From the NCBI RefSeq assembly GCF_032854445.1, contig NC_088305.1:26064628-26128627 (forward strand): a DNA stretch of 64,000 nt, written 5' to 3'. Under the pieces are notes generated by a model that saw only the letters and a list, made by a program, of their open reading frames with translations, was not told the origin of the DNA and ran no database searches. Below are positions 3,301 to 63,030 of this stretch, one piece after another. The first letter of the stretch is position 1; every line of letters starts with the position of its first letter. Source of the DNA: Liolophura sinensis. Its lineage: Eukaryota; Mollusca; Polyplacophora; Chitonida; Chitonidae. The position numbers and the translations under genes were made by a program.

Positions 3301-6300
3301 ATTCATGAAGTTTTGCTGAAACAGAGAAACAGTATACTGGAATTACATAGGGCCCATGCAGCCAAAGTAGAAATGTGGTTGTGCTTTTGTTTGATTCAAT
3401 AATCTAAAAATTTCCCGATCTTTTTAGCTATTACATCTTATATTCAACACTCTTTTCTATATGAAAGACAATTGCAGCTTATCCGAAGCAGAGATACCGA
3501 CAGTGGGAAGCGATGAGCATCGTGCAATGTGGCAGGAAAGGATTGCAGAGGTTAGCATTTTCACATGTTTACTTTGACAAGTATGAAAAATTGTTCGCTG
3601 GCTTATTTTGATATTTTTAAAGACTGTCATTATATTAATTTCTATACATTTAGAGAACATAAAAAGCGTGCAGATTAAATGTCTTTCATTTTTGTTTATG
3701 TTTGTCAGAGCAAAGAAAAACGTGCAAAATTTACACATGGTATAGTAACAGCCAAGCCCTGTGTTTAGTTGTAAATTGTTTCTAGAATCAAAACTAAAGC
3801 ATTGATTATTTTCCGTATGTTGCATTTGCCTTACTCTCTATTTAACACTGGACATTCGACTCCTGAATTTGCTGGGTCATTTATCCAGAGGACAATGCTA
3901 ATGAAATAGTGTGTTTTTCTTTTAACAGATCCAGGGAGCCATTCTGGTGTCAGCGTTGTTCCAAGTAGTCATCGGCTTCAGCGGTCTCATGGGATTTATT
4001 CTGCGGTTCATCGGACCTCTCGCCATAGTTCCAACGATCACTCTGATTGGTCTATCATTGTTCGGAGCTGCAGCCGCTCAGGCGGCAAACATGTGGTGGA
4101 TAGCCGTCTTGTAAGTTGTTAGGAGAGCAGATCACATAAGCCAATTTTCAAACAATTAGCCATGTTTAGCCACCAAAAGAAAAAAAAGAACAAGACAAGA
4201 ATTAACGAAATTTATTGAGTGGGAGGTGCTGTTTATCTTGGTGCATGTTCTAATTCACTATGCAGAGAAATTTGCTTTGGGTCAGTTACCACGATGTTCG
4301 ATTGGTATTTTATTTATTTAACAGTAGATGAGTTCCATGCAGGAATTGGATTGCCTCCCCTGTATATGGATTTAGTATCTGTGTAAATATCAGCAGCAAT
4401 GATATACTGGTTACACCGGTGGTAAATCACTGTGATGATGTGACGCTGACAGCCATGTTTTACCATCATGGCTCCCCACAAAAGATGACACTTAATGCAT
4501 GGCTTGCCTTAAAGTCATTAATGTTTTTTCACTGAAAAAAAAACGACGAATGGAACGCTAAGTGCACACATGCCCCCTTCACTGTATCGATATCATTCTA
4601 ATGCATTGTAACATGGATACAAGTCACGGACTGGTATTACGGAAAGGTCAGCTTTTCGGGCCCTACATACAGGGTTATTGCCAGTGACCAATTTTTAATA
4701 GTAGTAACCAACTGATATTGTCATTGAGCCACTGCTATTGCCAGTTATCAGCCTACACCTTTGTGGATAGGTTGGCTTCCTCAGTCATTTACTGTGTATT
4801 TTCTGCAATAGGTTTATATAGGCAGAAATACTTGTAGACAGAAACAGAACAAAATATATGTTTGGGCTGGTCGATGTTTCCTAGTGATACGTTTTATTGT
4901 CTACTAGTATGTATATAGTACCTGGTGTGGGTTTCGTTTCAGGACAATGTTTCTAATTGCGCTGTTTTCACAGTACCTTCGGGACGTCTCGATCCCTTTT
5001 CCTGTCTACAGAAGGGGCTCAGGCTGCGGTGTATACTTTGTGCCTATCTTCCGGTTATTTCCTGTAAGTACACTTTACACGTTTAACCTCAGACGTGGCA
5101 CAGGTATTTTGGTTTTCAGCATTTTCAACAATATTTAGATAATTTTATAATGACATCCGGTCAGTTTCAATGTCGATGTATTTATATTGCTACTACACTA
5201 TATTTTGTGTTGGTGTTTTACACCATACTCAAGACTATTTCACTTATACGTCGGCGGCCAGCATTATAACAGGAGGAAAGTGGGCAAAGCCCTGGGGAAA
5301 ATCCACGACGATCCGCAGGTTGCTGCAAGACTTACGGAGAAAAAGTTAGCATGGGCTGGACTTGAAGTCACAGCGACCGCATTGGTGAGAGGCTCCTTAC
5401 TTCACTATAGAACACCATGCCAAAGACACCAGACATGCCGAATCGCTGGTCAGCGTTATTGGCTCCAAACGGACAGGTATTTCCCCCATCTTTCAACCTG
5501 ACAGGATGTCGTCTTTGTCGTGCTACTAATATGGCATATAGCTGAAAGTCATTTCATTAACGGAAACTGCTAAAATGTCAAGAGTACAACAACGTACACA
5601 TTTGAATTTGTACACAATTCTCATTGGACTTACTCCATATCTATGCCTCGAAACAGACATGCGTATACCTTCTGTCAACCAAGATTGACGTTCCGGGTCA
5701 ATAGTCGCAAGGTCAATTCCCAAAACGACGTTTAACACAAACTACCGAAGATAAAATGATGTTGGAAGGACGCAAGGTGTGGTCAAGGCGCCTGAGTGAA
5801 ATCTGTATTCAAACCGTGTACCATGTTAGAATATGAGTTGTCGTTGATAAAATATGTATCTCAGTTCGCTCAGATACCGTGCCCAAAACTATTCCTCTGC
5901 CGCCACAGTTGTCTCCACTTGCATGTGTAACAAGAGGTACACGATCCGGTGCAAGTCATGTGGTGGAGAGTCGATAAACTTTGAGAGTAGTAATATGTGT
6001 GTTGTTGTTGTATCCTGTTCTCTTTTGTCTATTTAACTACAGGACCCTCATCCACTAGAAGCCAAGTAACACGAGATAATGGGGGATTTTTTGTGGCTAC
6101 TCATCACCTTAAACTTAAGCAAAAAGAGTCGTTTTTTCTGGCGTTCCGCTGATAAGGTGGGCGCCCTAACACCTTGATAATTACAGTAACTTCAGGTTAA
6201 ACGTGAAAATACCACCTCCTACATATTTTCTCTCAGAATTTCTCTTGGACCCTCTTCCAATTTTCCGTAATATTTCGACGATTTGCATTAAAATATAAAC

Positions 6301-18575: not shown

Positions 18576-21500
18576 TCACTCAATTTTCTTCAACGCTGTC
18601 TCGTCAGATGTTACATTAGAACAGCTGTCACCTTTGACCTTCCAGCTACGAAACATCCATTTCTCCAATTCTTCACTAAGTGTACAAACACCTTGTTTTA
18701 TTTCTGCACATGCCCGTATGAGTACTGCCAGTTGTTCTGCGAGCTCTCCATCATCATTTTTCTTGGCTTCCGGGTGTTTCATAAGAACATCTTGAGTTAG
18801 ATCCCTCACAGCGTTTGTTGCAGAACTGGAACCTGGAAAAAGTACAAATGTTAAAATATTAAACTCCAGTCGTGTGAAACACAATAGTTCCTATAAAACA
18901 GTAATATCGCACCGTTTATCTTGCGTGTTAAATATAATTTAGAATTCCACGTACAATAACGCCAGCAAGTTATTAACACAGCAACTGTGACCGTCATATA
19001 CAGGCGATACCGTTACATATACATTCCTGTGAAGTGTTTTGAATATTTGGAACTTTGTTACAGTATTGAAAACAGCAACAGAAAACAGACTCAGTGACTC
19101 AATATTACAATGTAAACAATGCTTTATATATAAAATGAGACGTACAGTTTTACAGACAGTTCAACAACAACAACATAAAAAAACATACACATCAGTATTA
19201 CCAGTCTTTAAAAGTTTCCAGTTCACCTTTGCATCCCAAGGAACGTATTCCAGGAGATCCAACGTAAAGATTATGGGATAAACACACAATTCACACAAGT
19301 CACAAATTGTCCCAGTCAGGTACTTCGCTAGGTTAGCGAACACGAACACAGTACACAGGTTACACAGAACTGGATCAGTCAAGCCTTTGAATGACGTCAC
19401 ACCCGCAGAGCACAACACAGGGTAAATACAGGCATGGAGGTATAATCCACTTTAGAACAGTCACAGCTCCCGCAGAAACTCACAAACGAGCCGTTCAGAG
19501 ACGTAGAGTAATGTCACCTTGTGGCAGAACGAACGTCCTTTGCGGTCAGCGTGTTAAACAAATTACACAGTCAACACTGTATAATCATAATAAAGATCCG
19601 AACACCAATTAACGTGACTTCCGCAGAAAGTCACTTAAACCAGACATCAGTACAACTGTGGTACACAAACGGTGCCGGCATAGAAATCTGTCCTCCCAAA
19701 CGAAACTGGCATCACCAGCTCATATCAATATAATGGACTCGATACGAGAGCGTCGCACACTCTCCTGGCTCCCAGTGGATGCAGCAAAAATACCGCCACT
19801 CTGCACAGAAAACACGGCTTATATACGTTCCAGGTGGATTCAACTATTTTTAAACACAGAATTAACAGCCAATGAAATAAACGAAGCATTGAACAAGGTG
19901 CTTTCCATCCGGTCCGCGCTGTACATATATAACAGGGCCTGTTATGCTTAACACAAAGGTCCGCAGACTAACAGTACATGAAAACGTTAAATAGTCATAC
20001 ATAACAACTTTCATTATCTAAAAGTTCGCTCGCATCGATTCAACCCGAACAAAATAATATTTACGTGTTAACAAGGAAGTAAAGAGCAAAGTCATCCAGT
20101 TTCGTTATATTATCTTCTTAGTAACAGGGAAGCTCATTCTGTCTGATTTTATCGAAAGAATTTCATTCAAACCTTTCATTAGTACATTTTTCAAGCATTG
20201 TATTAAAGTATCCATAAATGTGTTTACCATCCTAAGCATCCTCAGGCGGGCAGTTTAAATCAGCATTAAACTTCGATCAATACAAATGTATTATGACCAG
20301 CTTATTTACCCGCGAGTGCCAAGGCCAGATGGGTCTGATCAGACTCCATCAGCGCGTTTCGGAATTCAGACAGAGCTCTGCTTCCAGTGAGAGGTAACAC
20401 CTTCAGCAGTCTCTGGATTCGGCTGTGCCTTGTACGGGGATAAAGGACATAGTCGACAGCTGTGGATGACAGGATGTTAGCTTGACGAAGGTAACCCTCG
20501 ATGTGAGGAACGTCCATCATATCATCAACCAAAAGCTGGTAGTTCTCCGTCAACATCTTCTTGTCGTCTTCACTCATCGGGTCAACTGCACGAACATACA
20601 ACAACGGCAAAGATGTGTTGAGCTCCGTCTCCGCTGATCGAGACTCGGCATTTAGACTCACCTTAATAATCTGCCTTGTTAAACCAGTGCAGATTTTGGA
20701 CGCTAATATATGTAATTTTGTCTTTAATTGTTACATTCATGTGATGATTGTTACAGCATCACGATGAGCACTGAAACACCATGCAAGACTACACAAATTT
20801 TGTGCTGAATAGGACATACGTGCACTATGGATACAATATACATATAGTGTGCGTTAAACCACAAGCATTCATTCATTCATTCCCATGGCACACTTCACAT
20901 TTAACTGTGTTTAGCTTACCCGCCGATGTTACAGAGAAAACCAGATGAATCACCAGTCATTCCAAATATTGAGTAACCATCACATTTACTCTTCAAACGA
21001 ACAAAAAATAATAAATGCGCAAGAAAAAAACCATTTACGCGCAGCCTAGACCATGGCAGCTAATAGCGGTCATGTGGACTTTCCCTTTTTCTACTGATTA
21101 TTTAGACCGGAAATTAATACGAACGTCCGAAACGACGAAAGGACGAAAGAACTGAACAGAAGTACAGGGCAAAATAACAGGGTTTTGCCACTTTGTACTT
21201 CCGTCTCTCCCTTTCGTGCTTTTCTTTCGTCCAACAAAATACATGACGAGATTTCACCAAACCTCGCACTTTCGTACTTTTGTCTTCTTGATCTAAATCG
21301 CTGTGCGCATCGTCATTTCGTACGTTTGTAGTTTTGCTTTCGTTGTTTCGTCCTTCCGCATTTACTGTCTGAACTATATAATTAGTAGAACAGGCGAAAA
21401 CACGTATGGCCGCTACAGGTTTCCATAACTTACCCATCATCGGGTTTATCTCAAGTCGTCTCATAGCAATCTTAAATTCATCCAAGCTGCCTGAGTCTGG

Positions 21501-43700: not shown

Positions 43701-46700
43701 ATAAGGTGTGATCTTGCTGTGCTTGAATCCTGTTACTTCAGCAAAGTGGGCAAAATCACGTTCATTTTCTGATTTAATTACATCCACTGTTCCATGTGTT
43801 GCAAAAATTGTGTCCAGTTTGGGAATAAGGTGATTATCTGATGTACATTTCACTACTTCTACTATGGGGTATCAGGAGTAATTATCAATGGGAACAAACA
43901 AATAATCTCTGGAAGAATTGGTTTACAGTAGTCAATACTTACACAGATCTGTGGTTTTGTAGGCATGTCTGCCATTTCAAGGGGCTCTGGTTTCTGTGAG
44001 GGGCCATTAGTTTGGCACTGTAGACATCTGTTCACATGGTTTTCCACACCCTAATCAATCTTGGGATACAAGAACTTTTTGTGCAAAAGTCTCTTTGTCT
44101 TGACTATTCCTTCATGACCTCCATGGGCTAATTGAAGCACTTGTTTCCTAAGAGATGGGGGTGCAATGAGCCTTGTTCCACGTAATGTCGTGTCTGAAGG
44201 GCTAAGTGTTTCAGTTTGTAGTATCTCTAGAGATGAGAGTCAATCTTATTCCATCAACCTGATTGAATGTCTTTCGGCAGTTTTGTCATTTTTGAATCCG
44301 TGTTGTATGAGCTCTAGATAATCTGCAGCAAAAGTGATGTTGGAATGGTATATTAAGCTATGTATGTTCAGCTATGAAGTTCACATCTCGGTCAGCACTG
44401 TCTGTGATGGTTTCGACTGTTGAGGGTGTCTTGAGAGAAAATCGGCCGGATTACCTTCTCCCTGCTAGTACAAAACTGAGAATTCATAGGGTTGTAATAG
44501 TAGTTGCCATCTGACTATGCGTGCTGGAGGTTGAGACTATGGTTTGTTGAACATTGGATCAAATGGTTTGTGGTCTGTTACAAATGTAAACAGATTACCA
44601 AAGATAGAGATGTGAAACTGCAAGGGCCTCTCGCTCAGTTTGGGAGTATCGCTGTTCAGTGTCTGATAAAGTTCTGCTGGAATATGACACGTTGTGTTGT
44701 ATCTCACATGTGTTTGTTTGAGTAAAAATGTCAGCAAGTCCAACAAGGCTTGCGTCTACGTAGATAGATGTTTCCAGCATGACACAACAGGATTAGACGA
44801 TAATACGTCCTTAAGTTGCCGGAAGGCTGTTTGTTGTCGATCTGACCTTAACCATGTTGTGTTCTGTCGGGCCAGATCCACCAGTGTTGCATAGTTTGGA
44901 AAAAACCGTGATACGTCAAGCTGAGAAAACTCTTGATAGAGGCTGGGGTCCCGGATACTAGGATGTTATGGATGTCATGAACTTTCTTTTGCGTCTGGAG
45001 AATTTCCATATTTTGGAGAATGTGAATCCGAAGAATGAAATTGAACATTTTTTGAATTCATGCTTGTGCAAGTTTAGGGTAAGGTTCCACTCTCTTAGAC
45101 GTTGTAGAGCCTTGCGTAGAGATGCATCATGGTCATGATCGTTCTTACCTAACACTAGAACATGACCGGATAGGTTCATAACGCCGGGAATATCAGCCAG
45201 AAACCAGCTGGAGGACCTGTAGAAATATTTCGGATACAGAGGATAGTCCAAACGGAAAGGGTTTGTATCTGTGAATATCTTTGTGAGTTGCAAGTGTAGT
45301 TCAGTGACGTGAGTCTGGATGTGATTCAGTTGATGATATCCTTGTTTAAGATCCAGTTTTGAGAAGACCGTACCACCGTTAAGATGATGTGTCATTTCAT
45401 CAGTTGTGTCCATGGAATGTCGTTCACGTTTTACAGCTGTATTGGGCATACGCATGTCGACTCACGGTGGCACAGTGTTGTCTTTTTGGGGATACAACAA
45501 CGATAGATGAAACCCAGGGAGTACAACCTTCTACTGTTCAGTAATGTCTGCATTTTGAAGAGACTTTAGTTCTGGTACTACCTGTTTCCTTAAATGAAGA
45601 AGAAAGCCACGAGCAGATTGAGCCACTTGTTGAACGGATGGGTCAGGGTGAATTTTGAATTCAGATTCATTCAACAAGCCAACACCTTGGAATCTGTCAG
45701 CAAATTCATGAACAACTTCTTTGACATCTGATGTTGTCAGGTTCTTGTGAAAGTCTGGTTTAGGTATGGCATTCACTGAGCTGTCTGGAATGTGTATATA
45801 TATCCCAAGTCCGTTGCTGTGTCAAACCCAACAAGCGATATGCACGGTTTGTCAGTGAGGTAAAATTCAGGACGTCACAAAAATATGATCTTAAGTTTAG
45901 GAAGACTAGACGAATTAGTGAACAGTGGTTTGCAAAGTTCGGATGCTGTCCGAGTGACTGCATCGGTTACAGTTGTGTTACTTGAGGCGTTTAGGTATTT
46001 ATTATTGAATATTATTGCACAAGGGGGTGATATATGAATTAAAAATGACTTCAATATAAAGGTAAATCTGTTTTCATTGCGTACAGCTTTAAGAGTTCCA
46101 GGTTAATGAATGTACATGTGACGATACAGAGCGGTTAAGGAGAAAACCACGCAGAGAATAAACAGATCTCAGCCCTACTCTCATTTATGCGTTTAGCTAC
46201 AATATGCAATCAAAATCATTTATTTTTGATTTATTAAAGCGTTGCTCGAGAATATTCCTCTCAAAAAAAAAATATGCAAAACGGTCAGAATTCTGAGATG
46301 ACGAAATCCTACGAAAAAAAATCAACCAAGATGAGAACGCAATGGAAATTTAGAAATGAATGTTGAAGTACCTTATATCCAAAAGGTGAGTGCACTAAGT
46401 ACAAGTCGACGTAATCCATTTGAAGTCTGTCCAGACTTTGCTGCAGACTGGGTGCCACACTGTCCCCACCCATCCTGGCCCTGGCCAACTGAGTACGCAC
46501 AAGACGAGAAACTAGCTCATGAAAGAGTAAAACAGCTTTTTCTTAAAATTAACTCCTAATTTAGCAAATGGCATTACAGCGGTTATTTGGATAAATTTAA
46601 ACCTCTTTTTCTGACCAGTTTTTTACGGAGGACTTTCCATGGACCATAGCTAACCTGTATATCTACCACAAAGATATATCTAAATGTTTACCAGAATTGA

Positions 46701-49737: not shown

Positions 49738-50211
49738 AACCCGTATATAACAATGTCACTGTAGTCTTTATTCACAAGCTGGTCCACATGTAGCGTATTC
49801 AAACTGGGACACGTTTACATATCAGATATAGCCTACAGGCTTCCAAAACTGGGCCACAGTCATTCGTATACACCTTGCCGACATGTCAAGAGTTATCTCG
49901 TATAACGATATGACTGTATCATATTTTGATTGGGTGTTACTCCATTGCATCTTTCTTTACTTACTTTCTTTTTACATCTTTACTCAGTTTTGTATATAGG
50001 ATTTTAAACCGTCTGGAGTATAGTCTTTGAAAGGGATCGTAGGAAACCATTTTCCATAAATTTTACAAAGTATAAATTGGCTAGTTACTGACGAATTTTC
50101 CTACGTGTGACTTACATATATGCACAAGTAGTTAGGAATGTGACTTACGTTCGGTATTGGGGAGGCAGTTTTTGTGGTTTGGGGAGTTGTTTTTTTGTGG
50201 TGATGTGGTGG
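49738..50211. other. Intergenic, head-to-head space between aldo-keto reductase and zinc-finger gene
   Basis: This stretch upstream of the aldo-keto reductase start codon (minus strand) leads into the zinc-finger gene promoter (plus strand). It includes a T/G-rich block at 50165-50210. No TATA box at a convincing distance was found for the aldo-keto reductase. Confidence 0.5.
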
Positions 50212-50256
50212 TGACGTCACACCTGCCAGCCCGAAGGGCTGGTAGGTGTGACGTCA
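50212..50256. promoter_or_regulatory. 21-bp near-perfect hairpin with two CRE (TGACGTCA) ends
   Basis: The arms 50212-50232 and 50236-50256 (start TGACGTCACACCTGCC) are inverted repeats with one mismatch and a GAA loop. Each arm carries a full cAMP-response palindrome TGACGTCA. It lies about 170 bases before the first CCAAT box of the zinc-finger gene. It could be an enhancer, a cruciform or a relic transposon end. Confidence 0.7.
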
Positions 50257-50424
50257 TCCCCCAGTTGTGGGTTTTTCCCCACACCGCGGGACATATGTGT
50301 ATAGACGAGTGTGATATAGTGTATAGTATAACAGTATAGGGAAAAAAGAGAGAAAAAAAAGAGGCAAAACGTCGGCTTGTAAAGTCGAGTGGGACAGCTC
50401 GAAAAGAGCTCCCGGGCGCCAAAA

Positions 50425-50600
50425 CGAACCAATGGGTGAGCCGGATTTGCCCCCAAACGGCCCAATGGGGGACCCGCAAAACGAACCAATCAGCGTGCGA
50501 GAAGAGGTTACGTAAGAAAAAAACGAACCAATCAGCGCGTGGTGAATTTCCGCGTGGATAGGATAAAAGACAGGTGCAGCAGTAGCAGATCACTTCACCT
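50425..50600 (+). promoter_or_regulatory. Four CCAAT boxes plus TATA-like box of the zinc-finger gene
   Basis: CCAAT motifs lie at 50429-50433, 50462-50466, 50486-50490 and 50528-50532. Three sit in an ACGAACCAAT context and two of those continue as CCAATCAGCG. A TATA-like GATAAAAG follows at 50562-50569, placing a start near 50595. The short leader contains a GAGC repeat and reaches the ATG at 50650. The layout resembles replication-dependent histone promoters. Confidence 0.75.
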
Positions 50601-50649: not shown

Positions 50650-53000
50650 ATGGATCAAGAGGATTTCGAGGTTAATATGGAGAAGAAGACGTTGGAGGAG
50701 AAGAAGACGGAGAAGCTATTTACCTGCGAGGTGTGCGATCGAGGATTCACCCGACGCGATAACTGGCGACGACATGCTAAAACACAGCACGGCGATAAGG
50801 AAAAGAAGACGACGGAGAAGTATTTTTGCCGGGTGTGTGCCCAGCATTTTACCCGGCGGAATAACTGGCTCCGGCACCAGCGGACGCAGCATCAGCCCCA
50901 GACAAACAAAAGATTCACCTGTCCGACCTGTGACCGGACGTTTTTTCGCCGAGAACATTTGATCCGCCATCAACAGCGCCATGGCAACAAACGAGAACGT
51001 GTGTGGCATTGCGAAGACTGCGGTGAGTCTTTCTACCGGTTGTGGGATTGGCGGACCCATCAACGTGGGAAACACGACTCGGTAAGTTCTTTTTTTTTTT
51101 ATTATTTTATTTTATTTTTCTCCACCCCAAACAGCAGGTTGAGTGACCTACTAACCCACGAAGACGCCGCTTGATTATGGAGGTTGAAAAGCCACCGTAT
51201 TCCATGAATGGTTGGTTAGCTCAGCCGGCAGAGCGTTGGGCTAATAACGCGAATGTCACGGGTTCGAGCCTCATATCAGCCAGTCGACATTTTTTCATTT
51301 TTGTTGGTGGGCATTGATTTTTTTTTCATTTTCGTTTCTTTGCATACTATTTCGTTTTAAATAACGACGAGTATGTTGAATTTGGGGATAGTCTTTGAAG
51401 TCCAAATGTTGAATCATGTGCATGTATGAGTAGTTGCTTTCCGCGTTCAGCGTTGGTCATCTCAGACTTGGTGATAAAAAGGGTCCGTTTCCAAAAAAAT
51501 CATGCGCACAATAAATGTACATGATTTGTTTGTTTCAGGCTGGGGATGAATTAGGGGGAGTAATTTGCTTCTTGAAAGTTAATTTAAGACAGTAAGAGCT
51601 ATCTCATGTTACATGTTTGTAACAGTATATGAAAAAAAAGTATAAAAAAAAAACTTCTTTACTGGATCGTATACAATAAGACATGCTGCATTTCATTGCT
51701 GAAAATTACTATGCAGCCGATAAAAACAAAAAATAGGCTTAGATGTCTTCTTTCTTTCCTGAACCCGCTTTGCTTCTTGAAAGTTAATTGAAGACAGTAA
51801 GAGCTATCGCATGTTACATGTTTGTAACAGTATATGAAAAGTATAAAAAAAAGGGGCAGGGGCGACTACTTTTGTTGGAATAATGGAAATAAGGGGCGTA
51901 ACTCTAAATGTCAAACGACAATACGTGTCTGGAAATCTGGAAAGAGTAATATATAGTAATTTTCTTTATTTTTGTTCCAAAACTGTATAGGGGTCTTGCA
52001 GAGTTAACAATTGTATCAGTATATATATATAGATTTATTTCATTTAGTTCATATTTGTGTAAAGCAAACTCATGTCACAATTCATTTAAACACATTGTAT
52101 GACTTTATTTCACTTAATTTACAATATCTCATGAAAATTAATTATGATTTGTTGTTATTTAAATCGGGCACTCATTTACCATCCTTGAGACGACCGCCAA
52201 ATAGTATGGGAGAGTGTGTCAGTGTGTCATGCCAGGGTTGATATCTATCGGAATGGCTCCTATGTATTATATGTATTCTAAAATTTTTTAGCGGAACATA
52301 TGTACATATGTACAATAGTATGTATATAGAGTATGTCTAGGGTTTACCTAGGTTATAACGTCTACACCCTTCTATGTTACAGAGACCTGTTTCATCTACC
52401 ACCACCACCACCACCACCGACGACAACAAACCCAGCACGAGTCAAGCTCAAGTGAGTTTAGCGGGGGATGCCTCGCTGAAAGAAGAAGAAGAAAAGAAAA
52501 TCTCTCACCTGAAAGGAAACAAGGGGTTATACACGTTGGTGGGTGGAAATAACGGTCCTTACAGGGACTATTTGTGTTTGTTTCGGTGTCTAGCCATCCA
52601 TCTAGACCAGGCCAACCCCCAAAACTGCGAACGCCAGGCTGGGGTGTATTACCGCAGGTATCTGGAGGAAATGGAGATGGAGCCGAGGTATTTCCGCGGG
52701 GTACCGCTCAGTGCGCTGGACACGGTGGAAAGCCTGTTTCAAGTGAACATTCAAGTCTACCAGCTCATCCCCATGGACAGGTCGTACTCAGCACAACTCA
52801 TTCACCGCAGTGCCGAGCGCTATTCTCCCCCTACCCTGCGGTTAAACCTGTACCAGCGGCATTTCAGCTATATCAAAGACATGGGGTGTTATGCTCGATC
52901 TTTCACCTGCCAGGTGTGCCAGAAGAGTTTTCGGACACTGTGGGAGTTACGACGGCACGGTCAAACGTGCACCGACGCCATTCGACGACCACCTATTTAG
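50650..53000 (+). CDS. C2H2 zinc-finger protein with an OTU-like cysteine/histidine domain, two exons
   Basis: Exon 1 (50650-51081) and exon 2 (52383-53000, stop TAG) join in phase 0 to give about 349 residues. I chose the ATG at 50650 because it follows the promoter at leader distance. Exon 1 encodes an acidic start and four C2H2 fingers (FTCEVCDRGF, YFCRVCAQHF, FTCPTCDRTF, WHCEDCGESF). Exon 2 opens with a Thr-rich linker, then a domain with LCLFRCLAIHL and, about 90 residues later, LNLYQRHFSYIKDM. It ends in another finger-like FTCQVCQKSF with a C-terminal His/Cys. The Cys and His blocks resemble an OTU-type protease core. From memory, similar modules precede protein-primed DNA polymerases in Polinton or adintovirus-like elements, but no polymerase follows here. 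Promoter, splice phase and 3' signal are intact, so a live, possibly domesticated gene is likely. Its function is unknown. Confidence 0.85.
51210..51282 (+). tRNA. tRNA-Ile (AAU)-like gene inside the zinc-finger gene intron
   Basis: A 73-nt cloverleaf can be drawn. The acceptor arms GGTTGGT/ATCAGCC pair along all seven positions, the D stem is GCTC/GAGC, and the anticodon loop is CTAATAA (anticodon AAU). There is a five-base variable loop and a T loop TTCGAGC. Box B reads GGTTCGAGCC. A run of six T at 51290-51295 can end pol III transcription. There is one mismatch in the anticodon stem (G-G) and one in the T stem (C-A), so it may be a weak gene or a recent pseudogene. Confidence 0.72.
51566..51860. 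repeat. Two direct copies of a dispersed repeat
   Basis: TTGCTTCTTGAAAGTTAATT, AGACAGTAAGAGCTAT and CATGTTACATGTTTGTAACA occur at 51566-51655 and 51771-51860. An inverted third copy lies at 55003-55135. The copies lie in the zinc-finger gene intron. Confidence 0.85.
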
Positions 53001-53073
53001 ATCTGTAGAACGGTGCTATGGATACTCTACACACCCTGCTCCTGTGCTCCTGTGCTCTTGTGACACTTCCGAC

Positions 53074-53110
53074 GGCCCTTTTCAGGGCCAACCAACTCCT
53101 CCCGAAAGAG
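53074..53110 (+). terminator. Histone-type 3' stem-loop plus purine-rich downstream element
   Basis: GGCCCTTTTCAGGGCC at 53074-53089 is a six-base-pair stem with a four-base TTTC loop. It matches the replication-dependent histone consensus GGYYYU-UHUH-ARRRCC at every position. It is followed by ACCA and, 15 bases on, GAAAGAG (53104-53110), the position of the U7 snRNA-binding histone downstream element. It starts 73 bases after the zinc-finger gene stop codon, on the same strand. No AATAAA is seen nearby. Confidence 0.9.
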
Positions 53111-54671
53111 TAATTTCTAAATCTAAGCACTAAAAAAAAAGTGGATGTGTTTTTTCTACTTCATGTAGATAAGCGTGTGAGAACGAGTTATGTAAGGAGG
53201 ACTATTTAGCGTGGGCGGATGGTGATGGGGGTGGTTAGGTCACGGGTGATATCACGGGCTGGTATCTATCCCGATAGCTCCTATGTATTATGTATGGACG
53301 CACCAGCTGGCTGGCTGGCTGGCAACAATGTATACAATGTATACAAGGCGCAGCCGAGCAAAACCAAAAACCACGTGTCCAAACAAAAACCACGTGTCAA
53401 AACAAAGCACAGCTGACAACATTGTTGGCCTGACTGTAGGTCGGCTGGTGGGTAGGATCGTTCAGCGTGTCTTTGCAACACTGTTCGCCCAGGAAGGCTC
53501 ACTGCTGCAGGTAGGGGGGTCGGTGTTATGAACCGTAGACCCTGTCGGTGGGATTTTTTTTGGGTGATCTGCCTGTCTGTCTACCTGCTGGTTGTGGTAG
53601 GGATGGATGGATCGACACCACACCCAAACATACATGCACACTGGAGACTCTACTATACTATACTATACTCTACTCTACTCTATACTATATATAGGCGATG
53701 TAGTGGAATAGAGCACAGTAGAGTATAGGGGAAAAAAAAAAGAGAAAAAACTTGGATCAGAAAATCTCGAAGCTTATAAGAAACTTGGAGGAGATCAATG
53801 TGATGGTATTTCACACATATTTTCAGCATCTATATTTTCACCAACATCCACATATTTAAGCAAGATATGTAACAGCCATTTCTTAAACGGTTAAATTCAA
53901 TTATTCTTTATCCACTAATCTTAACACACATATACACAAGACAACCAAATGACCATGAAGGAGAAAACAACTACCAGGTTATATTAAAAAAATTCTTTTT
54001 TTCAATGTTTTATTCTTTTCTATCAAAAATCTGAAATACAAAAGGATATACCGAAACATAAACTTGCAGTACTTGCTATGGGGAACCTAACAAAGCCCAT
54101 ACGTGTAAATGATAAAAATGATATTGAAAATAAATGATAAATGGGTGTGCTGAACAGCTAATTTGACTTTGAAAAGACCGGTCAAAGCAGGTGTCAAAAT
54201 GTCTGGCTCTATTAGTAGAGATTGCCAAATGACCATCGAAGAGACCTAGCCTCTGTATAAAGTTAAGTTCCTACAATAGCAGAAGGTATACATTCGAAAA
54301 ATTAATCTGTTATTTTTAACAGAAAATCTGTGATCTGAATGATGCTGGAATGTATTGTGTTATTACAATATAATATTCTGCCATATTCAACATAATATAC
54401 TGTTAGTCTAATGCTAATTTTATGTGGGATTAATAGAATACGTGTTTTATATTCATCTGATATTCATCAGTTTTCATCTGATATTTTACATCACATGTGA
54501 CCCGTTACAACTCCGGGAACAAGAAGATTCGAAGAAGGAAGAAGTCATTTAACAAGTCCACTCTGATACGGGCATCTCGTCCAAGGTCACGCCCCTTTCT
54601 AGCCCAGGGTCATATTGGTTATCAGAAATGAGAGAAAAAAAACAGAAAAAAACCAGGTCATCCATGGCTTT
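53111..54671. other. Intergenic region between zinc-finger and RNA-binding genes
   Basis: Contents: a segment near 53262 (GTATCTATCCCGATAGCTCC) repeating one near 52239; a pair of CCACGTGTC motifs near 53371-53398; a CTATA-rich microsatellite at 53640-53695; and a purine block at 53717-53745 resembling 50331-50365. There is also a degenerate MITE relative at 54285-54450. The 3' UTR of the minus-strand RNA-binding gene also lies here, with AATAAA at 54013-54008. Confidence 0.55.
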
Positions 54672-57600
54672 TCACAGGATCTGTTGGAAGCGTTCCACAG
54701 GTGGGTCGGGGTGGTTGGCATAGCTCGGCTGGGTGTAAGGACATGGTGGGCTAATGAACTCTAGGGCTGCAGCACAAAACAATAAACTCTGACAATTCTA
54801 GTTATGCAAATAGTTACTTTCCTGGCTAATATTCATTCAAAATATACTTGGGTAACCGCATGCGTGTATGTATGTGAGTATTTAACCATTCATTCTTCAA
54901 ACGAGTTGCTAACACACACAATACCTGATGCATGTCACAAGTGCTTACATAACGGCAAACAGCTCAGCTATGAATAGTAATTTCCAGCAATTAAGTTTTT
55001 TGCAGCATGTCTTATTACATATGATCCAGTAAAGAAGTTTTTTTATACTTTTCATATACTGTTACAAACATGTAACATGAGATAGCTCTTACTTTCTTAA
55101 ATCAAGAAGCAAAGCTGGTTCAGGAAAGAAACAAGACATCAAAGCATACAATGGCCACTTATTCAATGAGGTATCATAAGTGAAAAAGGGTAGAGCTTGG
55201 GCGGTGAAGCATTTGTTTGTCTTTCCTTTTTTATCTGGACACTAACTTTACCTTCAAGAGGCACACCTAACTGCATCAAAGTGTACTCTGCTGCAAAAAC
55301 CTTTGCCCCCTCAACAGTAGGACACAGTTTATTTGGGGTAAATGGATTACGATTTGGAAACTGAGTACCGAGAGCTGGTATGGTGATCTGAAAGACAAAT
55401 GTACTTTACCATAGATTAACAATGTAAATGCCTAACATCAACTTCTACATATACTTATACATGTATAAACCCCAACCACGACATTCTTTTTTCGATTTAC
55501 TTCAGATCAATTATTTTTATAAGATAATTTACTTCTTATTCTTTCTGGTACACATGGACATGATTAATTGTATAAATAAATAATAAAAAAAGTTACATTC
55601 CAGCAAAAAGAACTTGATTCTTATCTCTTCAAACAAGTTTCTTATCAACATTTTGTTGAAACCTATGGTAGTACCTTGTACAAAAAGAGCTCTAAGAGCT
55701 GTTGGGCACCACTTCCACCCCTTCCCATGAGAGAATGAAGCTGGTATACAGGACTTCCCCATCCATTCTTCTGACAAAGGTCATCGAGCACCTATAGTGA
55801 ACATCGTTACATGCATGACATTCTTGATTTACTGAAGCCTCACTAGGGCAATCGGGCTATAAATTAAAGGTAATTAGTAAAACAAAAAATTCTTCCACAA
55901 AACAAAATCATGGTCAAAGGTTCAACACAGAGCCTTGCATTATGACAACTTTCAATGATAACAAAACAGCCAATTTTTTAGCTATTAACACACCTGATTA
56001 ACGAAATTTAATTCAAAACTCATTACATGTATAGGAAATATTAGATAAGAATTAGTTTCTAAGTATGTTCCCTGTTACTTCAAAGTTTAAACAAACACCC
56101 ATCTTCAACGAAACTGAACTAACTCACCTTCTGGTTAATTGCACAATCGGTTCATGTCTTTTAGTACGGCGTAGGCAGATTATAGATTTTAAGACTGCGT
56201 AATCCTTTAAGCATGCTTCAGAATAAGTTGCAATGCGCAACTTTTTAATGGGATATGGGACCGGAAACCTTCTGCATTGACAACGATACACACCTCCGCT
56301 GGATGTTTCCTAAAGCCACACCCCCTCAGCATCATCCCCCGGCCTCGCACAGGGCTTCTGATGCCCATGGGACCTCGCCCTGCCAACGCCCTGCTAACAG
56401 TACAAAAAAGCACAAATATTCCAGCTATTTCATGGTAAAAATTATGTGACTGAGCCTTCTTAAAGTTTCTTCTTCCTGCTTTTCCTCCTGAGATGTTCAC
56501 ATAAAATCAAATATATTGAGCTATTCAGGTTTGGTTGATGAAACTTAATGCTTCTTTGTATACTTACATGTAAGAAGCTCATAAAACGTTTTTTTGAGGA
56601 CATTGCATGGATAACACATAAATGCAACTTCTTTCACGTCAAATGACTCTATCAACCACAATGGTAAAACCACTAAATATGGTAGTGTACCTTTCCTACA
56701 TGTATGCTGTTGAATGGAAAGCTACAGAGTGACAATTAAAGAATATAGGTCACAGGTGGTACGAAGTTCACATTAATTCTTGGCAAAAAGCAAGCCCCTA
56801 CCATTCAATAAAATCGCCTGTTTTCAATAAAGCTATGCCTTGCACAGTCTTGCAAATATTTCTGCTCCGTGTGAAGCACCTTCCAACTGAAATCCGTCAT
56901 TACCTCATTTTGGATTTCAGTTGCCAAAGTAGACTTACCCATGTCATTTTTCTAGTTCTCACTCTGTACTCTGTATCCATTAGCATATCAGCAGGAGAGC
57001 TACAATACTGTACTTTGTAAAAACCACTTGCATATGCTTATTTACAGTTACAGTTATTACAGACAAATCATAAGGTAAAATTTAATCTTAGGTTATCTAA
57101 GATTTCATCATAGATGATCACAACTGAAATGATTTAAAACCAAAGACAAATATCCTGTTCCTGGTCTGAAGCACACAAATGACAGAGCATCTGACACTTC
57201 TGAGAACCCTGATATTAAACAGACAAACTGGACACACACGGTGGAATATGACAACCTATGCTCTTAATTCCGCAAATATTGTTCTAAGCTAACTGATTTT
57301 TATAAAAATTCCAAGAATACAACTCTATTCTGACTGCCAGATCATCTGCTGTGCTGGATTCTCATCTGTATTCTTATATCAGGTGAACAGAGTTGTGGAT
57401 TTCAGGCCAAAATAGTTCTTACCTTGCGGGTGGTGGAGACATCGGGTTGTAATACAATGGAGGCGAGTAACTAGGATCATAGCCATAGCCCTGAAAAATT
57501 TGTCACAGTATCAAGTACACTTGTCATACAACCAAAGCATGCATAACCCCCTACCTTAACATACGAGGAACTCTTACCCTAACATAACAGAGCCCATGAC

Positions 57601-60600: not shown

Positions 60601-62075
60601 TAGGCAAGCGATGCGTCAGTTATTCACTGTTTCATCTTAATTACTTGAGTTAGCATGTTTTCCCAATATTCTCCCTTAGATGTTGGTGGATATTCTATCA
60701 TGTAATTTTCTGTAAACATCAATCAAGTGGAAAAACTAGTTAAAACATACTAATGTGCCACACGCGACTGACAAACGAAAATGAACTTTTACTTATCAGA
60801 AACAGAACTATCCGAATGGAAATATATCACACTCTATAAATGCACACAAAAACTACATTCGCCTACCGATAGAAAAAATATACTTCCGTTAATGCATTTG
60901 TATTTATCCAAAACCAATCAACACAACTCCAAAATAAATAATTTTTCTCACCATTAAGTTTAGCCATGGCCTTGATAGCAGCATCTTTGTCGCTAAAACG
61001 AATGAATGCATAATCTCTTATCTTCTTTACTCTTCCCACAGCGTTGTCTCTTCCCACAACTTGACTGCACAGCTTTCTAATTTTGTCTTCTGTAGTTGTC
61101 GACATAAGGTTCCCCACGTGCAAAACCACCTTCTGTAATACAAATATGCACAACATAAATATTATTCCAGTCATACAAATATGCACAATATTAATGTAAA
61201 AGATGACGACGCATCAGTGCTTTTCAGCCATAAGTGACTATATTAATTATCACCACAGCCTCCCATACAAAAGAAATCACTTGTTGCAAGAAATGTTGCG
61301 CGCGCGCGCGCACACCACCCTCTCATGACAGAAAATGCAACAAATGCTGCACGCGCGCACACCACCTTCTAGTGACGGAAAATGAAAGAGCAGACGATAA
61401 GAAATTGCAAGAAGTTACGAGACATTTTACACATATCCACCCACACAAAATACCCCTCTGATACAAAAAATTTTAGTTCAATTATAACTTTTCAAATAAC
61501 GGCTTACATAAAGGTCAAATCTGTTTGGACTGTGGTACCTACTCGTGAATTTTACAACTAACCAACCGATATTTCCGACGTCTGGTGCCGTCTACATTGG
61601 CAATTAAATGTGTTTTAATTTGCAACGAAGAGACAACCAAAAAAGTTTCTATAGTGGAAATTACATGACTTACAGAAGAGTTGCGAACACACAAGAGCTG
61701 GCCTTTATGAATTTCGTAGTTGTGAAGCTCCTTTACCGCTTGATTCGCGTGTTCTTTGTTAGTGTATGTAACGAATCCATATCCTCTATGGGGTCCAAAG
61801 CGGCGGTTCGTTACGAGTTTCAGTTCGTAAATCTTTCCTATCTTCTCAAATACTGGAACGAGCTCGTCTTCGTAACAGTCTTTTGGAATACCTCCGACGA
61901 AAATTCCACAATCCTTTAAAGGAGCCCGGCTTTCCCAGTCGGGAGGTGGACCGCCGTACTTTCTTTCCCATTTTTCTCGCCGTATGGTGTATCCTGTTCT
62001 CGCCGTAAGGTTCAGCAAGGCTTCGTTTGGCTCCCGGGTCACACGATGTGGCAAAGCCTCCTCCGCGGACGCCAT
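54672..62075 (-). CDS. A1CF/RBM46/RBM47-like RNA-binding protein lacking RRM2
   Basis: This is an RNA-binding protein of the A1CF/RBM46/RBM47/hnRNP Q group. Exons in coding order are 62075-61674 (ATG), 61132-60952, 59941-59886, one or more of the duplicated 99-nt exons 58642-58544, 58417-58319 and 58192-58094, then 57490-57423, 56390-56294, 55791-55675, 55387-55252 and 54766-54672 (stop TGA). All phases agree; one linker exon gives about 416 residues. Exon 1 carries the family lead RTGYTIRREKWERKYGGPPP and RRM1 (IFVGGIPKDCYEDELVPVFE, GYGFVTYT). Exon 2 is RRM3 (VLHVGNLMSTTTEDKIRKL, VKKIRDYAFIRF). An RG-rich exon (GRGPMGIRSPVRGRGMMLRG) follows the linker. The dsRBD-like C-terminus contains VLDDLCQKNGWGSPVYQLH and FTPNKLCPTVEGAKVFAAEY. 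RRM2 is not found in the 541-base intron between RRM1 and RRM3. Confidence 0.93.
55003..55135. repeat. Inverted copy of the dispersed repeat at 51566-51860
   Basis: The reverse complement of this segment matches 51566-51700, including TAAGAGCTATCTCATGTTAC and CTTCTTTACTGGATC. It lies in the last intron of the RNA-binding gene. Confidence 0.85.
57797..58290. repeat. Duplicated intron-exon block, copy 1
   Basis: This block is nearly identical to 59134-59630 in direct orientation (GGCCTTCAATATTTCTACAC, CATCAGTGGCATTCCCTACC, GTGGCCCAGGTGAGTATAAT). It includes linker exon copy 58192-58094. Confidence 0.9.
58094..58642 (-). other. Three intact tandem copies of a 99-nt linker exon
   Basis: Exon copies 58192-58094, 58417-58319 and 58642-58544 are spaced exactly 225 bases apart. 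Each has an acceptor (GGCAG or TGCAG) and a donor GTAAGAG or GTAAGAGTT. All are 33 codons, phase 0 on both sides, so any number or choice stays in frame. They code for ANQDCHLGEVDRAYNRG then PEALESWKQKEVSYVR. The 58642-58544 copy instead has Gln for Pro and ends SCVK. They lie between the exons encoding RRM3 and the RG-rich linker. Confidence 0.93.
58741..59035. repeat. Short repeats carrying copies of the linker exon 5' splice site
   Basis: Imperfect units of about 40-50 bp contain ATGAGGAACTCTTACCCTGA followed by CATAACAGAGCCCACTACC or similar. On the minus strand each includes TCAGG/GTAAGAGTTCCTC, the end of the linker exon with its 5' splice site. Similar units occur at 57545-57600. Confidence 0.82.
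59042..59132 (-). pseudogene. Truncated copy of the linker exon
   Basis: The donor end is intact, but the first eight or so bases and the acceptor are missing. The copy stops at 59132, where a duplicated intron block begins (GGCCTTCAATATTTCTACAC). It cannot be spliced as an exon. Confidence 0.85.
59134..59630. repeat. Duplicated intron-exon block, copy 2
   Basis: Matches 57797-58290 with few differences. Its left edge cuts through a linker exon copy, so the breakpoint is visible at about 59133. Confidence 0.9.
59426..59524 (-). pseudogene. Linker exon copy with destroyed acceptor
   Basis: All 33 codons remain open, but the acceptor TGCAG reads TGCGG, removing the invariant AG. The sequence also has several changes (Cys to Arg, Pro to Ser, Glu to Lys, Tyr to Pro). 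It is probably not used as an exon. Confidence 0.8.
60248..60395 (-). mobile_element. SINE family A copy, head missing
   Basis: Antisense tail TACGCTGTACTCAAGAATAT, then ATGAGGAAACCAGGCAGAGC and GGTTGCTGGCAGACCTTCCC. It lies in the intron after the RRM3 exon. Confidence 0.85.
61285..61385. repeat. Duplicated CG-rich microsatellite segment
   Basis: Two copies of an AAATGTTGC...ACACCACC segment, each with a CG dinucleotide run (the first GCGCGCGCGCGCGC). They sit in the short intron between RRM1 and RRM3, where RRM2 would be expected. Confidence 0.8.
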
Positions 62076-62162
62076 ACCTACACCCTACTAAACCCTGCTT
62101 GTCCCACTGCTGACGAACTAGAAGTAGGCAAACTGGACTTTGCCACGCACGTGCGTGGACTT

Positions 62163-62889: not shown

Positions 62890-63030
62890 GCGACAAGGAG
62901 CAAAACGTCGGCTTCTAAAGTCGAGTGGAGCAGCTCCAACAGCTCCATGCTATGCCAGCTATGCCAACCACCCCGACCCACCTGTGGAACGCTTCCAACA
63001 GATCATGTGATCAGCCATGGATGACCTACG
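62890..63030 (+). pseudogene. Chimeric fragment: zinc-finger promoter piece joined to the RNA-binding gene's last exon
   Basis: The left part (GCAAAACGTCGGCTTCTAAA, GTCGAGTGGAGCAGCTC) matches 50374-50410 upstream of the zinc-finger gene. The right part matches the reverse complement of 54650-54730, the end of the RNA-binding protein (reads YANHPDPPVERFQQI then a stop) and the bases after it. The coding frame is kept, but no acceptor or upstream exon is evident. Confidence 0.85.

Follow-up and report, generated by a model that had tools for sequence, protein, structure and literature searches.

The window gene and its 3′ end

The window, by which we mean the whole 64-kb stretch of DNA analysed (C11:26064628-26128627 in the 609-Mb assembly), contains a predicted two-exon gene on the forward strand that leads from a histone-like promoter to a histone-type stem-loop. 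The features of this gene, several of which were defined by alignment to related copies elsewhere in the genome (designated by L numbers), are as follows.

50427-50569, + strand: histone-like promoter, with CCAAT at 50429, 50462, 50486 and 50528 and a TATA-like GGATAAAAG at 50561
50650-51081, + strand: predicted first exon, which holds the start codon and encodes four C2H2 zinc fingers (Pfam PF00096; over the whole protein, E 8.8e-23)
51082-52382, + strand: predicted phase-0 intron, GTAAGT...TTACAG (donor retained in L032, acceptor in four of five copies examined)
52383-53000, + strand: predicted second exon in its deleted form, with OTU-like core, C2HC finger and then a frame-shifted stop
52500-52502, no strand: junction at which 0.2-0.6 kb (mostly ~0.5 kb) is gone; the segment is present in 28 of 30 fetched copies (BLAST, exon 2)
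52988-52989, no strand: junction left by the 2.8-kb internal deletion, which took out the polymerase region, and continued by the PolB 3′ end; homology to full-length copies ends at 52988 and resumes 2.8 kb on
53006-53008, + strand: ancestral PolB stop (..VSTTYLDL-stop), which ends PolB in full-length copies and lies 65 nt ahead of the hairpin
53074-53089, + strand: histone-type stem-loop, GGCCCTTTTCAGGGCC
53090-53094, + strand: AACCA, presumed cleavage site, which the H2A, H2B and H3 genes read from the host share
53104-53110, + strand: GAAAGAG, 14 nt beyond the stem, the putative histone downstream element to which U7 would bind
53111-53130, + strand: remainder of the common 3′ cassette (..ATCTAAGCAC), also in the L032 RING gene; its last ten bases recur in host H3, and nine of the ten in H1

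Structurally, the hairpin agrees at every position with the metazoan histone consensus, a six-pair stem (GGYYYU/ARRRCC) and a four-base UHUH loop, as also represented by the RF00032 model, and AACCAAC lies directly 3′ of the stem; the sequence-only reading, which had described a perfect histone hairpin with ACCA and GAAAGAG at this place, is confirmed on that point. A search of both strands of the 64 kb for strict matches (six pairs, UHUH loop) returned this hairpin alone, with 0.0076 expected under a first-order Markov model of the window. RF00032 scored it at 26.3 bits with all 46 positions covered (E 0.0036 for the whole window and 4,227 families, E 2.3e-5 when 401 bases were searched), which does not reach the Rfam gathering score of 34 bits; because one host H1 gene (L035) has a hairpin that likewise falls under that score, at 32.7 bits, the gathering score fails to separate true from false here. 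Judged by folding energy alone, the hairpin does not stand out (z −1.61), since 17 of 200 shuffles did as well. Across the 609-Mb assembly, the exact 16-mer occurs 146 times (77 + 69), versus 0 for a letter-reversed control.

At the other end of the gene, the four promoter CCAAT boxes lie on one strand, 122-221 bp ahead of the ATG, and all four are retained in L032, whose exon 1 shares 88% amino-acid identity with that of the window. They fall within 99 bp from first to fourth, the tightest same-strand run of four in the window, the next tightest extending over 201 bp (− strand) and 688 bp (+ strand). Just upstream of the promoter is an inverted repeat (50207-50261) with 26-nt arms that are 88% complementary, a 3-nt loop and TGACGTCA in each arm.

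What is left in the window copy is the promoter, four zinc fingers, the OTU-like domain, a fifth finger and the 3′ end, with ~2.8 kb of polymerase gone. The OTU-like region gave no OTU match in Pfam; its core residues are D206, C209 and H304, numbered on the 349-aa frame. Since the 3′ part sits 2.8 kb further on in full-length copies, the window copy derives from such a copy by internal deletion, and the stop at 52998-53000 is frame-shifted. The 73-nt distance from stop to hairpin given by the sequence-only reading is correct as measured from the TAG at 52998-53000, a codon that is nonetheless out of frame, the ancestral stop being at 53006-53008. Among the 30 fetched copies, direct continuation from 52988 into the 3′ part was found only in the window (L038), L039 and L045, and the segment missing at 52500-52502 is absent from two, the window and L039. 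The window gene encodes no histone, and no histone genes were found inside the window with human core histones as queries (H1 not among them).

Other features of the window include a tRNA-Ile(AAT) gene on the sense strand within the predicted PolB intron (51209-51283), an intron repeat (51564-51852) with inverted copies at 54971-55148, and a 43-bp stretch at 62900-62942, beside a CCAAT box, that is 88% identical to the element promoter at 50364-50406 and is perhaps a relic of another copy. Pfam also recognised, all on the − strand, a reverse transcriptase fragment (44958-45461), a CARD domain (20302-20730) and an RRM protein (61539-62084).

A PolB family and its recurring 3′ cassette

The OTU core has at least 152 matches in the 609-Mb genome (150 of 270 candidates scored); among those listed, at least 30, the window included, are ≥90% identical to it over ≥120 residues, and nine sit within open frames of 1,120-1,378 aa. 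The PolB frame of L075 matches PF03175 (E 1.2e-10, 41.4 bits against a cut-off of 25.8) and is assigned to the type B DNA polymerases of the organellar and viral kind. The reading frame from core to PolB stop is open in just three of 16 copies (L071, L072 and L075). Beyond PolB, L075 carries ORFs of 218 and 454 aa on the opposite strand, the first of which resembles the solved cysteine protease S273R (6lj9; E 5.1e-7) and is classed with the virion maturation proteases of the adenain kind. A Pfam scan gave no match for the 218-aa ORF. In the search for a double jelly-roll capsid protein, the 454-aa frame of L075 gave nothing above the Pfam cut-off, and a 436-aa ORF had no PDB sequence match and no relative in viral_contigs. 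Protein searches of IMG/VR returned no relatives, two motif-search matches there were judged to be due to chance, and hairpin scans matched 18 and 11 stretches.

With Polinton/adintovirus elements, currently named Eupolintoviridae (Alphadintovirus, Betadintovirus), this family shares a PF03175-type PolB, an adjoining ORF for a viral-type cysteine protease, many integrated copies and, putatively, an OTU-like domain ahead of PolB. It is unlike those described in having a histone-type 3′ end on its PolB and RING genes, and the passages searched in PMC11071296 and PMC11071308 contain no description of such ends on elements of this kind. The OTU-like domain has been proposed to cut terminal protein from polymerase (PMC11071308), a proposal that stands apart from the present claim.

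Sixteen copies were read for 6 kb beyond the core, and in 13 of these the hairpin recurs at the PolB 3′ end, perfect in 12 and with a single broken pair in one (L077); L069, L079 and L082 have none. In the three copies with an open frame it starts ~65 nt past the PolB stop, and ACCA and GAAAGAG follow as in the window. When 40 of 135 candidates were scored, the whole 153-nt 3′ end was found at no fewer than 30 genomic places including the window, its first 108 nt alone at one or more, and the hairpin part (the cassette) alone at nine or more. Sorting by location covered 100 of the 146 exact 16-mer places, set against 60 of the 152 OTU cores: 13 are on the same strand as a core and within 3.7 kb downstream of it, 11 are on the opposite strand 3-6 kb beyond the other side of a core, 4 are near a core in other positions, 24, 20 and 6 form clusters on C1, C7 and C4, and 22 are elsewhere. 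At two of these dispersed 22 (C4:3641284 and C3:12494449) the hairpin belongs to a match of the PolB 3′ end.

The opposite-strand hairpins point to a second gene. The PolB intron of L032 contains, on its opposite strand, an open frame of 347 aa that encodes a RING finger (PF13920, E 2.8e-11). A hairpin stands 176 nt past the stop of this frame, and over the 88 nt around it, A-rich tail included, the sequence matches the L071 PolB cassette at 94% identity. Four of the nine cassette-only places coincide with opposite-strand hairpins near cores. From position we infer that these hairpins follow RING genes, the gene itself having been read in L025/L032. Elsewhere, L034 carries GGCCCTTTTCAGGGCC at 4955 (− strand) with a histone-like flank and no recognised gene ahead.

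Polyadenylation signals are arranged differently on the two sides of the element. Past the stop of the first opposite-strand ORF beyond PolB there are two AATAAA-type signals at ~100 nt in all six copies that allowed this stop to be placed, out of seven examined, and the opposite strand of the 16 pieces holds no strict hairpin, − strand matches being the palindrome itself only. On the PolB strand, the first AATAAA-type signal comes ~480 nt past the stop and ~400 nt past the hairpin in all seven copies examined, so that polyadenylated forms of PolB mRNA are possible.

Evolutionarily, the 13 PolB 3′ ends vary at 1 of 16 sites in the hairpin and 0 of 7 in GAAAGAG, compared with 7 of 65 in the 3′ UTR before them, 3 of 14 in the spacer and 5 of 29 in the stretch behind; GAAAGAG carries a one-base insertion in L070, and no copy has a substitution at its seven sites. 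This pattern leans towards constraint on the hairpin and GAAAGAG, though as a test it is not strong, flanking rates predicting about two to three variable hairpin sites against the one seen in copies that are themselves related. The hairpin also stands ~60 nt past the last aligned residue of a diverged PolB, L033 (51% identity over 162 aa, 45% over 118 and 60% over the last 30). This suggests that use of the hairpin is older than the young copies. Another candidate for a diverged PolB with hairpin, C2:12769382 (59% identity), was rejected, its 3′ end being that of the common lineage (97.6%).

Older copies look otherwise. Eight pieces read 2.1-3.7 kb past old cores (54-74% identity, with stops in all) contained no hairpin, even when a match at 14 of 16 positions was allowed to count. 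Four of the eight have correctly oriented homology to the PolB tail, and a fifth, L089, a short and reversed one; in two of the four, L084 and L091, this homology extends as far as the C terminus of PolB and no hairpin follows. Because these older copies, together with L069, L079 and L082, are without it, the signal may be young or may have been lost in decay, L033 being the sole sign of greater age; in the old-copy lineages either it was lost or it had never been there.

Host histone genes and a second hairpin-bearing array

The cassette resembles the 3′ ends of host histone genes. The hairpin at 12 of the 16 PolB downstream pieces is identical to that of one host H2A, one H2B and one H3 gene, and the L071 PolB cassette, compared with one host gene each, is 95% identical to H2A over 42 nt, 92% to H2B over 52 nt (these two comparisons stopping where the pieces end), 85% to H3 over 65 nt and 79% to H1 over 63 nt. 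The H3 and H1 genes read from the host have GAAAGAG at the matching place, and in both the shared part extends beyond it to TCTAAGCAC. The host H3 gene (L035) also has four sense CCAAT boxes at ~113-192 bp, whereas the neighbouring H1 has only one (H3 and H1 being the promoters read); CCAAT and TATA elements are present in human core histones (PMC1794435). Histone clusters were seen on C1 (H1, H3), C7 (H2A) and C4 (H2B), with one piece read per cluster and 100 of the 146 hairpins listed, a listing that covered no place on C11, where the window lies. A search for the host U7 snRNA gave no match, and its control also matched nowhere.

Like the replication-dependent histone genes read from the host, the element has this hairpin, ACCA and a presumed downstream element, along with a short 3′ UTR and, as in the H3 gene, four CCAAT boxes. 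It differs from them in encoding a polymerase or RING protein, in its predicted intron and in its dispersed, mobile copies.

A further set of hairpins lies in a tandem array of ~1.4-kb units at G000:C10:21126691-21289604 (L024, L028-L031, L036 and L037), which accounts for 71 of 75 hairpins that were scored. The units read (L024, L028 and L037) encode a 107-aa non-histone protein, without a Pfam match above the cut-off, followed by the hairpin GGCTCTTTTCAGAGCC, 36 nt past the stop in L028. By its sequence, this array is a candidate second non-histone user of the hairpin signal, laid out like a histone cluster.

Interpretation and alternatives

The window gene is an internally deleted PolB copy from a multicopy Polinton/adintovirus-like element, and we posit that the hairpin is probably the 3′-end signal of the PolB gene of that endogenous element, with the polymerase and RING genes using host histone-type, S-phase-linked processing. 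Mechanistically, a histone gene of the host would have been the source of the cassette, or selection would have matched the cassette to one; host SLBP and U7 snRNP would then cleave polymerase and RING transcripts after ACCA, and the resulting mRNAs would be without poly(A), made and stable in S phase only. The cassette and the four-CCAAT, H3-like promoter would together make the replication genes of the element active when the host replicates its DNA, and ordinary polyadenylation would serve the virion-side genes on the opposite strand. The predicted intron of the PolB gene is unusual for histone-type genes and counts against this reading. The broader claim of the sequence-only reading, that a non-histone gene of mobile-element origin carries a histone-type 3′ signal plausibly tied to DNA replication, is supported.

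It is unlikely that the cassette is instead a captured fragment of a host histone gene, inert at the RNA level and spread by amplification of the element. Such a fragment would fit the likeness to host histones reaching beyond the hairpin, and also the distribution by age, hairpin-bearing copies being mostly recent relatives and none standing behind the older decayed cores read, two of which have a visible PolB C terminus. An inert passenger does not readily account for a cassette placed on the sense strand so close behind the PolB stop, with no AATAAA-type signal for ~480 nt, nor for its recurrence at a second gene (L032) and at a diverged PolB (L033), nor for hairpin and GAAAGAG being the parts that vary least.

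Dual use, with transcripts ending at the hairpin in S phase and at polyadenylation sites otherwise, seems to us quite improbable, although dual processing of H2A.X has been reported (PMC7807067) and all seven copies examined have AATAAA-type signals ~400 nt past the hairpin. H2A.X and intron-bearing hairpin histone genes show that two exons or a second, polyadenylated end are possible with this signal, Hydractinia H2A.X.1 being a hairpin gene with two exons (PMC5011920), yet these are still histones.

The rival that stems from the sequence-only reading is an independent zinc-finger gene of the host, possibly domesticated, with a histone 3′ end suited to S-phase action. The 349-aa frame is open, its fingers and OTU-like core are intact and the splice sites are good; moreover, L039 (97% identical) and L045 have the same deletion junction as the window, so at least three copies of the short form exist. 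Counting against this rival, relatives 90-94% identical lie within open frames of 1,120-1,378 aa, the window C terminus is the product of a frame-shifted deletion junction and the hairpin is a feature of PolB 3′ ends across the family, so that we give up this view of the gene and regard a host gene of that kind as very unlikely. A chance palindrome, although a first-order model yields a strict match ~119 times per Gb, is rejected, being refuted by the recurrence of the exact 16-mer, in many cases behind a PolB, RING or histone gene and between flanks that resemble one another, and by its absence in reversed form.

Returning to the PolB signal, we judge it moderately likely, from sequence features, that an integrating lineage of animal DNA viruses took over the host histone programme at both ends of its genes, with an H3-like CCAAT promoter at one and the hairpin, ACCA and U7 site at the other, such that the replication-side polymerase and RING mRNAs would be non-polyadenylated, SLBP-dependent and confined to S phase, and the virion genes polyadenylated. 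In 2018, core histone mRNA was called the only metazoan case known (PMC6303110), and a literature search of partial coverage, by title and start of abstract, yielded no report of non-histone use of the hairpin. If our reading is true, no protein-coding genes outside the histones were known before these to depend on histone 3′ processing, and they would offer a natural portable cassette for studies of SLBP and U7 specificity. The replication timing of integrated Polinton-like elements would become testable, and a virus-like polymerase with a histone signal would break the histone-only rule and suggest a route by which such elements reach synchrony with the host S phase.
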